Source: Thermoguttaceae bacterium
GTDB lineage: Bacteria; Planctomycetota; Planctomycetia; Pirellulales; Thermoguttaceae
Length of the DNA: 32,353 bases
Direction: 5' to 3'
Assembly: GCA_024653385.1 (NCBI GenBank)
Contig: JANLFZ010000001.1
Location: 1 to 32,353, forward strand
Shown: positions 27,964 to 31,914 of the stretch, in pieces
How the letters are laid out: each line of letters opens with the position of its first letter
How positions within the stretch are numbered: the stretch's first letter is position 1
Translations under genes and position numbers: made by a program
The notes under the pieces: generated by a model
Told to the model about the DNA's origin: nothing
Seen by the model: the letters and a program-made list of their open reading frames with translations, nothing else
Databases searched by the model: none

Positions 27964-30096
27964 GTGGGAGTCTTGCCATTGGATAAGACGAAATCTTCCG
28001 ATCGCGCCGCACCGATGACGGAACGGGTCCAGGGCGTCGACGCGGGCGTCAAGCCGGTCCCTTTGGCCCCACCGGGCCCGAACGGCCAGGGCAACGGGGA
28101 AGCACCTCGGCGCCGCGCCACGGCGCACTCGATGGCGGCAAGCCAGCGCGACATCTCGGTCAGCGAGTTCTTCGCGAAGAACCGGCACCTCTTGGGCTTC
28201 GACAACCCGCGCAAGGCCCTGTTGACCACCGTCAAAGAGGCGGTCGACAACGCCCTCGATGCGTGCGAAGAGGCCGGCATCCTGCCCGAAGTCTGGGTCC
28301 ATGTCCGCTCGACCGGCGAGAACCGGTTCCAGGTGGCCGTGCAAGACAACGGGCCCGGCATCCTCAAGAAGACCATCCCGCTGATCTTCGGCAAGCTGCT
28401 GTACGGCTCGAAGTTCCACCGCCTGCGCATGAGCCGCGGCCAGCAGGGCATCGGCATCTCGGCGGCGGGGATGTACGGGCTGTTGACCACGGGCAAGCCG
28501 GTCAAGATCATGTCGAAGATCGACAAGGGCAAGCCCGCCCACTACTACGAAATCCAGATCGACACGAAACGCAACGAGCCCGAAATCCTCAACGGCAAGG
28601 GCGAGGGCGACGAGATCCCTTGCGGCGAGCGCGGCCGGCAGGCCATCGAGAAGCTGGGCATCGAGTGGGTCGAGGTCGAGCATGGCACGCGCGTGACGAT
28701 CGAACTGGAGGCCCGATTCCAGCGCGGCCGGGGAAGCGTCGACGAATACCTCGAGCAGACGGCCCTGGCCAATCCGCACGTCACGCTGCATTACATGGAT
28801 CCCGAGGGCCAGGAGAAGCACTACCTCCGCGTGGCCGAGACCCTGCCGCCGGAACCCAAGGAGATCAAGCCGCACCCCTACGGCGTGGAGCTGGGCATGC
28901 TCGTCGCGATGCTCAAGGACGCCAAGGCCTCGACCTTGTCGCAGTTTCTGACCACGTCGTTTTCGCGGGTCAGCGCGGGGGTCGCCCGCCGGATCTGCGA
29001 GGCGGCCGGCCTGAGCCCGCGCGCCAGCGTGCGCAAGATCGGGCGGCACGAGGCCGACGCCCTGTACAAGGCGATCCAAGAGACGAGAATTCCCGCACCG
29101 GCCACCGACTGCATCTCGCCCATCGGCGAGGAACTCTTGCTGAAGGGATTGCACCAGCTCGTGCCGGGCGAGTTCTACGCGGCGGCGACGCGGCCCCCGG
29201 CCGTCTACCGCGGGAACCCCTTCCAGATCGAGGTTGGTCTGGCCTACGGGGGAGCCCCGGCGACGCACCGCGTGCCCAAGGAAACGCTCGTCGAGCTGCT
29301 CTCGCAGAGCGACGCCCGCACCTTGCGGCAGTTCCTGGCCACCACGTTCGACGGCCTGGGCGTCGAGGCGGCCGATCAGATCCTCCACACGGCGAAGCTC
29401 CGCCGGCGCATGTCGCCCGGCAAGCTCAAAGAGGCTGAAATCGACCGGCTCCACGAGGCCATGCAGAACGTAAGCCTCAACGACCGGCAGACGATGACCG
29501 TCTTGCGGTATGCCAACCGGGTGCCGCTCTTGTTCCAGGCCGGGGCCTGCGCGATCACCCAGACGGTGATGCAGACGAACTGGCGGGCTTATGGGCTGTC
29601 GCAGTCGCGCGGGGCGCTGCCCTCCGGCCCCGTGACCGTGATGGTCCACATCGCCAGCGTCTGGGTGCCCTTCACGAGCGAGTCGAAAGAGGCGGTGGCC
29701 GGCTACCCGGAGATCCAGAAGGAGCTGCGACTGGCCCTCCAGGCGGTGGGCCGCAAACTCGGCATGTACCTCAAGCGCCGCCAGAAGGCCCGGCACGAGG
29801 GCGAGCGCCGGAACCTCTTTCTTCGCTACCTGGGCGAGGTGGCCACCGCGGTCAGCCGCATCAACCGGACCGACCGTGACGCCCTGTACGAACAACTCCT
29901 CAAGGTCGCCAAGCGCAAGACCGCGGAGGCCGACGCCAAGTACGACGAGCGCGGCCAGCGGATCGACGAGGAGGAAGACCTGGGCGAGCACGTGCTGATC
30001 GTCGAGCGGGCAACAAGCCCGACGCCGGTCCCCGCCGCTTGCGTCGCTCCCGCCGAGCACCCCGAGGTCGCGGAAGTCGACGACGAAATCGACTAG
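27964..30096 (+). CDS. top6B: DNA topoisomerase VI subunit B
   Basis: GHKL motifs TTVKEAVDNALDACEEAG, VAVQDNGPGILK, MSRGQQGIGISAAGMYG; H2TH segment; GNPFQIEVGLAYGG; LRYANRVPLLFQAGACAITQ and switch-Lys region VPFTSESKEAV. Confidence 0.95.
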   Translation: MGVLPLDKTKSSDRAAPMTERVQGVDAGVKPVPLAPPGPNGQGNGEAPRRRATAHSMAASQRDISVSEFFAKNRHLLGFDNPRKALLTTVKEAVDNALDACEEAGILPEVWVHVRSTGENRFQVAVQDNGPGILKKTIPLIFGKLLYGSKFHRLRMSRGQQGIGISAAGMYGLLTTGKPVKIMSKIDKGKPAHYYEIQIDTKRNEPEILNGKGEGDEIPCGERGRQAIEKLGIEWVEVEHGTRVTIELEARFQRGRGSVDEYLEQTALANPHVTLHYMDPEGQEKHYLRVAETLPPEPKEIKPHPYGVELGMLVAMLKDAKASTLSQFLTTSFSRVSAGVARRICEAAGLSPRASVRKIGRHEADALYKAIQETRIPAPATDCISPIGEELLLKGLHQLVPGEFYAAATRPPAVYRGNPFQIEVGLAYGGAPATHRVPKETLVELLSQSDARTLRQFLATTFDGLGVEAADQILHTAKLRRRMSPGKLKEAEIDRLHEAMQNVSLNDRQTMTVLRYANRVPLLFQAGACAITQTVMQTNWRAYGLSQSRGALPSGPVTVMVHIASVWVPFTSESKEAVAGYPEIQKELRLALQAVGRKLGMYLKRRQKARHEGERRNLFLRYLGEVATAVSRINRTDRDALYEQLLKVAKRKTAEADAKYDERGQRIDEEEDLGEHVLIVERATSPTPVPAACVAPAEHPEVAEVDDEID

Positions 30097-30190
30097 TGGA
30101 AGCCTCCAAGCCGCAACCGAAAGGCGACGCGGCTTGGCGGTCGCGTGGCGTTTATCCTTCATCCCGCACCGTTCATCCCGCACCCCTTCG

Positions 30191-31345
30191 ATGGCCAAGA
30201 AACCCCGCACATCCGCCGCCGAACAGCGCGAGATCGACCCTAAGGACCTCAGTCCCCGCGACCGCAAGACGCTCGGCCAGATCACCGGCCTGGCCGACAC
30301 CGTGGTCAAGGCGGCCGCATCGGGTCGCGATCCCGCGATGGACATCCCGGCGCGGACCCTCTCGAACGTCCGCTATAACAAGACCAAACGGTTCATCGAG
30401 ATGGGCGCTGCCACCAACCGGCGGCAACTGTTCAATCTCAACCAGGCCAAGAGCTACATGCAGACGATGCTGGTGGCCGAGGGCGCCAAGCGGCTGATCG
30501 TCCAGGGCAAGACCACCAGCCTCCGTGGCATGTACTATCTGCTGAAGCACACCATCGAGGGCACCCGCGAGGAGACCTTCGACGATCAGGAAGAATCGGA
30601 CAGCGTGATCGAAGACCTCGAGGTCGCCATCGAGGCGCTCCGCGAAGAGTTGCACGTCTACGCGAAGAACGCCGGGGCCATGGTCGGCGAGATCACCCTG
30701 ATCGACAGCGGCGACACGATCGACTGCACGCGCATGGGCTCGGGCGGGTACTCGATCCCCTCGATCGTCGAGCCCGAGGTGATCCAGTTCGCCAAGTGCA
30801 ACGCGAAGTTCATCCTCCATGTCGAAAAAGACACGGTCTGGCGGCGGTTCAACGAAGACAAGTTCTGGAAAACCCACAAGTGCATCCTCACCCACGGCGG
30901 CGGCCAACCGCCGCGCGGCGTGCGCCGGCTCTTGTACCGCATGCACCACGAGCTGGACCTGCCGGTGTATTGCCTCCTGGACAACGACCCCTGGGGGTAC
31001 TACATCTACAGCGTGATCAAGCAGGGATCGATCAACCTGGCCTACGAGTCGAAGCGCATGGCGATCCCCGACGCACGCTATCTCGGCCTGCGGTCGAAGG
31101 ACTTCGAGGAGTGCGGCCTGTCCAACAGCGTGAAGATCGACCTCAGCGACACCGACCGCAAGCGGGCTCACCAGATCATGAAATACCCCTGGTTCGCCCA
31201 CAAGAAGCCGTGGCAGAAGGAGATCGAGAAGCTCCTGGAGAACGGCTTCAAGCTGGAAGTCGAAGCCTTGATCTCGAAGGACATCAGCTACGTGACGGAA
31301 GAGTACACGCCCCAGCGCCTGGCCGACCAGGATTGGCTGGACTAG
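30191..31345 (+). CDS. top6A: DNA topoisomerase VI subunit A (Spo11-like)
   Basis: Catalytic-Tyr region TTSLRGMYYLLKH; Toprim Glu ILHVEKDTVWRRF; Toprim DxD LLDNDPWGYYIYSVIKQGS; C-terminus like Top6A. Confidence 0.95.
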   Translation: MAKKPRTSAAEQREIDPKDLSPRDRKTLGQITGLADTVVKAAASGRDPAMDIPARTLSNVRYNKTKRFIEMGAATNRRQLFNLNQAKSYMQTMLVAEGAKRLIVQGKTTSLRGMYYLLKHTIEGTREETFDDQEESDSVIEDLEVAIEALREELHVYAKNAGAMVGEITLIDSGDTIDCTRMGSGGYSIPSIVEPEVIQFAKCNAKFILHVEKDTVWRRFNEDKFWKTHKCILTHGGGQPPRGVRRLLYRMHHELDLPVYCLLDNDPWGYYIYSVIKQGSINLAYESKRMAIPDARYLGLRSKDFEECGLSNSVKIDLSDTDRKRAHQIMKYPWFAHKKPWQKEIEKLLENGFKLEVEALISKDISYVTEEYTPQRLADQDWLD

Positions 31346-31914
31346 GCCTCGCCAGACCACAGCATCGCGGGCCGCAAGACCGCCTCGGGCAGCGCGAGCG
31401 GTCGGATCTCCTCGTCCCCGGCGAAGATCCGGATGCTTCGGTAGCGGCCGCCGCGCGGCTCGCGACGCACCTCCACGGTCCGCTCCGGCAGGTTGGCGAT
31501 CCCATAGTCCGCGATCCCGGCGGCAGCGTACAATGCCGCCTTTTCCCCCCGATCGTATTCGAGACTGCTGTCGGCCACCTCGATCAGCAAGAGCACCGCG
31601 GAGGCGAGAGGCCGGCCGCTCCAATAATCGCCCGGGGCGACCCAGGCGATGTCGGGCTCCGGAACGCTCTCCTCGGCCGGCAAGCCGATCGAGTTCTGCA
31701 CCCGAACCCAAATCCGCTCTTCAGGGACGCTCCGGACGCTCCAGTGATTCAGCCGATCGACGACCACCTCATGCGAGGGACCTGAAGGGGACATCTCGCG
31801 AACCTCCCCTCGAATGAGTTCCACGTGGCGGCGCTTCTCGCCCTCGAAGAATCCCAACGCGATCATCTGATCGTATTCAGCCAACGAGAATCGGGCGATC
31901 GTGCTCATGGGCAT
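31342..31914 (-). CDS. Uma2-family (DUF820) PD-(D/E)XK putative nuclease
   Basis: RHVELIRGEVREMSPSGPSHEVVVDRLN, ESVPEPDIAWVAPGDY, LLLIEVADSSLEYDRGEKAALYAAAGIADYGIANL. Confidence 0.9.
   Translation of the reverse strand: MPMSTIARFSLAEYDQMIALGFFEGEKRRHVELIRGEVREMSPSGPSHEVVVDRLNHWSVRSVPEERIWVRVQNSIGLPAEESVPEPDIAWVAPGDYWSGRPLASAVLLLIEVADSSLEYDRGEKAALYAAAGIADYGIANLPERTVEVRREPRGGRYRSIRIFAGDEEIRPLALPEAVLRPAMLWSGEA

Follow-up and report, generated by a model that had tools for sequence, protein, structure and literature searches.

A gene for the B subunit of topoisomerase VI (Top6B), located in a 32,353-nucleotide stretch of Thermoguttaceae bacterium DNA (the window), encodes two related 67-residue segments, one at the place where the H2TH domain of this protein is expected and the other within the transducer domain. 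This locus raises the question of what the second segment is, how it was generated, and what it could do in the enzyme. The features relevant to this question are the following:

27964-30096, forward strand: Top6B gene (NF003218, E 4.7e-209; 2q2e_B, E 7.3e-143; full-length AlphaFold2 model, pLDDT 86.3)
28132-28866, forward strand: GHKL ATPase region (PF02518, E 1.3e-10) with the motifs EAVDNALDA, DNGPGI, and GQQGIGIS
28891-29091, forward strand: H2TH copy 1, the canonical H2TH domain, which aligns with M. mazei residues 243-309
29098-29262, forward strand: first half of the transducer (PF09239, profile positions 1-55)
29278-29478, forward strand: H2TH copy 2, between the transducer strands GNPFQIEVGLAYGG and VLRYANRVPLLF
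29479-29805, forward strand: second half of the transducer (PF09239, profile positions 55-158, E 9.2e-38)
29707-29865, forward strand: long transducer stalk helix (AlphaFold2 helix 526-578 of a 654-residue model)
30134-31345, forward strand: Top6A, the partner subunit (PF21180, E 4.7e-58; PF04406, E 1.6e-15; NF003333, E 5.9e-166)

The product of nucleotides 27964 to 30096 is topoisomerase VI subunit B, as the GHKL, H2TH, transducer, and stalk regions as well as the Top6A partner are all present. The first possible start codon is the GTG at 27964, and the likeliest ones are the ATG at 28132 or that at 28015; the Top6A gene lies directly downstream, with a start possibly at the ATG at 30191. The residues of the N, G1, and G2 boxes of the GHKL region are invariant or nearly so in a 77-protein alignment, and the second half of the transducer includes a WRAY (WKxY) motif and the ATP-contacting SESK lysine, aligned with those of M. 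mazei. The archaeal Top6B proteins of M. mazei (2Q2E/9O0G) and S. shibatae (1MU5/2ZBK) share the GHKL, H2TH, transducer, and stalk helix regions, the catalytic and ATP-contacting residues, and the adjacent Top6A gene, but they have one H2TH domain and a short loop where the Pirellulales protein has copy 2. We recognized no Ig-like domain at the C-terminus of this Top6B. Although the second H2TH departs from the single H2TH and short transducer loop of the solved structures, these are not defining features, and it marks a variant of a known enzyme rather than a new kind of enzyme. A gene of the Uma2 family (putative restriction endonuclease; 31342-31914, reverse strand) is located tail-to-tail with Top6A and shows no sign of belonging to the topoisomerase VI system.

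A first-pass annotation of this DNA had described an ungapped 67-residue duplication with 23 identities, and the peptides it quoted lie exactly at 28891-29091 and 29278-29478. The two copies are 34% identical (23/67, ungapped BLOSUM62 score 86), and when the whole protein is compared with itself no other pair of 67-residue segments scores as high (88 versus 36 for the next best). Chance similarity was ruled out: the local score of 91 was not reached in any of 5,000 shuffles (mean 22.4, SD 4.1, maximum 46). As had also been proposed, copy 1 occupies the canonical H2TH place between the GHKL region and the transducer, as its alignment with M. mazei indicates, and its helices are seen in the AlphaFold2 model. 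Copy 2, the whole insert of which spans about 29263-29478, cuts the PF09239 transducer match at profile position 55 into the two pieces listed above, and the alignment with M. mazei Top6B breaks at the same site (residues 364/368). Nothing was found in favor of copy 2 being an artefact, either a duplication introduced in the assembly or a chance resemblance, and the probability of such an explanation is practically nil: copy 2 was read directly, at one length, in 94 loci (some of them pairs from one genome), and a transducer divided in the corresponding way indicates its presence in more than 200 genomes, single-contig ones included. Besides, an identity of no more than 34% between the copies of this Top6B rules out a read-duplication error.

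On the basis of profile homology and predicted fold, copy 2 is an H2TH domain, as the first-pass annotation had supposed. A profile built with 52 copy-2 sequences, from which copy 1 was excluded, was searched against the whole PDB and retrieved the H2TH domains of archaeal Top6B, those of S. shibatae (residues 235-301, E 5.9e-9) and M. mazei (residues 241-309, E 1.2e-4); ribosomal protein S13 and Fpg came next, with weak matches. Copy 2 also matched the H2TH region of NF003218 (E 6.4e-11), and the value for the Pfam H2TH family PF06831 (0.015) was below the cut-off. NFACT_N (PF05833) was matched by 52 of the 52 sampled copy-2 members and S13 by 39; we take the part of PF05833 matched by copy 2 to be its H2TH. 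Modeling of isolated copy 2 by AlphaFold2 without templates resulted in a mean pLDDT of 82.7, with core block means of at least 85, and Foldseek placed Top6B chains at the top (probability 1.00, rmsd 1.4-1.7), the best match being the M. mazei Top6B H2TH (9o0g_B, rmsd 1.4 Å over 71 columns), with MutM/Fpg after them. In the full-length model (pLDDT 86.3) the helix pattern of copy 1 (254-263, 269-276, 282-292, and 305-317) is repeated in copy 2 (383-392, 398-405, 411-420, and 434-446). The H2TH domains of S13, Fpg/MutM, and NFACT/RqcH have the same fold and G-x-G turn and give weak profile matches to copy 2, but they belong to other proteins with other functions, and copy 2 is clearly closer to the Top6B H2TH.

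A Top6B transducer was found in 217 of 246 Pirellulales genomes examined, in nearly all cases in two pieces; the few single matches scored as half of the profile only, and none of the 217 genomes gave the score of an uninterrupted domain. Since every Top6B-bearing member tested is devoid of an uninterrupted transducer, and the insert length is identical in the 94 loci, the fixation of copy 2 in Pirellulales is strongly supported and the insert is clade-wide, a point that had been left for alignment of homologs. An insert common to all planctomycetes was ruled out. In planctomycetes outside the order the loop is either 4-6 residues long (e.g. AYGGELPADE) or, in several families, holds unrelated, charged low-complexity inserts of 25-55 residues, indicating that it tolerates insertions; a split transducer match in one of the families (f51) corresponds to such a low-complexity insert and not to copy 2. 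A folded H2TH in this loop was found only in Pirellulales among the genomes tested. The short linker expected in archaeal proteins was present in S. shibatae, M. mazei, and three haloarchaeal Top6B proteins, which rules out for these five an insert common to archaeal Top6B. The haloarchaeal proteins (PRK14868-type, about 820-845 amino acids) are likewise enlarged by a large insertion, but this is located inside the canonical, copy-1-type H2TH and their transducer loop is short, unlike that of Pirellulales.

A tree was built from 83 H2TH segments, with 67 columns only and with copy 2 on a long stem; in it, copy 2 formed a single clade (100/100) and Pirellulales copies 1 and 2 joined each other against the single-H2TH proteins (99/96.7). 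These two groupings point, with good but not final strength, to one internal duplication in the Pirellulales ancestor, apparently of its own H2TH. Capture of copy 2 from another H2TH protein, such as an archaeal Top6B, S13, or Fpg, instead of duplication in place would agree with the score that the copy-2 profile gives to the S. shibatae H2TH (44.4 bits), similar to the mean for Pirellulales copy 1 (40.5). We nevertheless consider capture very unlikely because the trees unite copy 2 with Pirellulales copy 1 and the S. shibatae sequence joined the copy-2 clade, in another tree, only as a very long branch (length 3.24), a placement that we read as long-branch attraction. Scores of Top6B with copy 2 are also far above those of S13 or Fpg; capture from S13 was not supported by either the profile search, where the Top6B H2TH is well ahead, or the trees. 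Capture would concern the origin of copy 2 only and is compatible with any reading of its function.

The two copies differ in the residues that in M. mazei contact DNA through the H2TH domain, R263, K268, and K308 (PMC5922973, PMC13040014). At these positions Pirellulales copy 1 has mostly T, R, and K, and in the Top6B described here basic residues are kept at the K268 and K308 positions; the same three positions are occupied in copy 2 by I/A/T, G (98%), and N (79%). Net charge averages +5.5 in copy 1 and +5.1 in the single-H2TH planctomycetes, compared with 0.0 in copy 2. Purifying selection is stronger on copy 2 than on copy 1, with pN/pS values of 0.19 versus 0.27 (90 pairs), and copy 2 is no less conserved than copy 1 (mean column entropies of 1.30 versus 1.44 bits). 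Fixed or nearly fixed positions of copy 2 (67-residue numbering) are D12, R14, R17, Q18, F19, F24, G26, G28, R44, and P47, and define a polar signature consisting of D-x-R-T-x-R-Q-F, a G-x-G turn that is more canonical than that of copy 1 (G 98%, G 97%), and R-x-S-P. R14 and R44 are invariant, R17 is nearly so, and helical periodicity places R14 and R17 on the same face as the lost R263, which makes a shifted DNA contact possible. Ordinary DNA-backbone binding by copy 2 is likewise possible in view of R14, R17, R44, and the canonical G-x-G turn. As copy 2 is strongly conserved despite having lost the DNA-contact set, we infer that it has taken up a new job and is a repurposed module instead of a spare DNA-binding site. 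The earlier suggestion of a second DNA-contacting module was consequently borne out in part: the conserved arginines and the G-x-G turn speak for it, but the contact residues are replaced and the net charge is 0 versus +5.5.

An unexplained "alpha-helical bundle" adjacent to the transducer was described in 2024 in the Top6B proteins of Pirellula staleyi and the dinoflagellate Cladocopium goreaui, and was unique to these two and absent from the other modeled bacterial topoisomerases VI (PMC11302465). Belonging to the same order and the same domain, this bundle is very probably the same insert as copy 2. Its presence in C. goreaui was attributed to gene transfer (PMC11302465); contamination is another possibility. 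The published description did not include its identification as an H2TH or a duplication, nor analyses of distribution, residues, or selection, and in the literature searched we found no recognition of the bundle as an H2TH or as duplicated, nor of its occurrence throughout the order. While the bundle itself was already known (PMC11302465), its H2TH identity, origin, fixation, and altered surface are new here.

The cellular setting of this enzyme was inspected through the other type II topoisomerase genes. Among tested Pirellulales, one GyrB-type gene was found in 10 of 10 genomes with Top6B and two full-length ones in 11 of 11 without it, counts that ignore kinship; the second GyrB-type gene of the Top6B-less genomes is topoisomerase IV-like, with about 640-700 residues. 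Top6B and this second gene look mutually exclusive among the genomes tested. This is consistent with topoisomerases VI and IV replacing each other in the order. Topoisomerase VI bacteria outside Pseudomonadota and Terrabacteria have been reported to be without topoisomerase IV (PMC11302465), and this together with the GyrB-type counts suggests that the double-H2TH enzyme is probably the Pirellulales decatenase, doing the job of topoisomerase IV. The genome studied here encodes a single gyrase-type GyrB and has a single GyrA-type gene; the match to the latter (contig C751, 256-1669) is divided between two neighboring open frames, probably as a result of a frameshift in the assembly.

A more far-reaching reading, to which we give a probability of roughly 0.35, is a division of labor in which copy 1 would sense the bent G-segment outside, copy 2 would sense or gate the T-segment in the cavity, and the enzyme would act as the chromosome decatenase of the order. 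In the AlphaFold model of P. staleyi Top6B the bundle protrudes into the central cavity (PMC11302465), and because of this location a cavity-side gate element appears to be the likeliest job of copy 2, for which we see about even odds; the placement of copy 2 itself would follow from this published model of one relative. In the proposed mechanism the H2TH domain was duplicated once in the Pirellulales ancestor and, as sequence and structure prediction show, the second copy came to lie in the loop that connects two transducer-sheet strands. Copy 1 would keep the usual role, as deduced from M. mazei, gripping the bent G-segment arms and coupling ATP turnover to cleavage. Copy 2, having lost the DNA-contact set and acquired its own polar signature and new job, would line the chamber of the T-segment or make it narrower. 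On closure of the ATP gate it may come into contact with the T-segment, with the transducer of the opposite subunit, or with Top6A, and could in this way bias strand passage in favor of decatenation in cells without topoisomerase IV. No biochemical data on Pirellulales topoisomerase VI were found in the literature searched.

Copy 2 could instead be a second DNA-binding H2TH that grips a G-segment arm near the WKxY motif and the stalk and raises bending or affinity, a role in keeping with the general nucleic acid-binding nature of the fold, with the canonical turn and the conservation of R14, R44, and R17, and with the fact that the nearest non-Top6B matches, S13 and Fpg, bind nucleic acids. 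The basic residue is, however, gone at all three M. mazei contact positions, the net charge is neutral compared to both copy 1 and the single-H2TH planctomycetes, and the published model has the bundle inside the cavity and not on the outer face with the G-segment arms, so that we regard this role as doubtful. It is also unlikely that copy 2 serves as a structural spacer or docking surface devoid of a DNA role, for example one bridging the two B subunits or receiving a partner specific to Pirellulales, such as a protein of chromosome segregation. There is no known partner gene, and an H2TH fold whose pN/pS value is below that of copy 1 would be superfluous in a pure spacer, even if the neutral charge, the conserved polar patch, the constant insert length in 94 of 94 loci, and the tolerance of the loop to unrelated low-complexity additions in other planctomycetes would suit such a function.

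The H2TH domain of topoisomerase VI couples ATP use to DNA cleavage, and T-segment sensing in the cavity is poorly defined. An altered second H2TH, fixed in an order that seemingly uses topoisomerase VI and not topoisomerase IV, provides a natural comparison; since the short loop of the ancestor is regained once the insert is removed, the contribution of copy 2 to gating and decatenation is directly testable.

Searches of other records gave no Top6B match in phages; on plasmids, haloarchaeal Top6B was matched and all other matches were partial. A Top6B of the Pirellulales type, copy 2 included, was present in records titled Chthonomonadales, Ca. Nealsonbacteria, and Deltaproteobacteria, which are probably misnamed assemblies and possibly cases of transfer.
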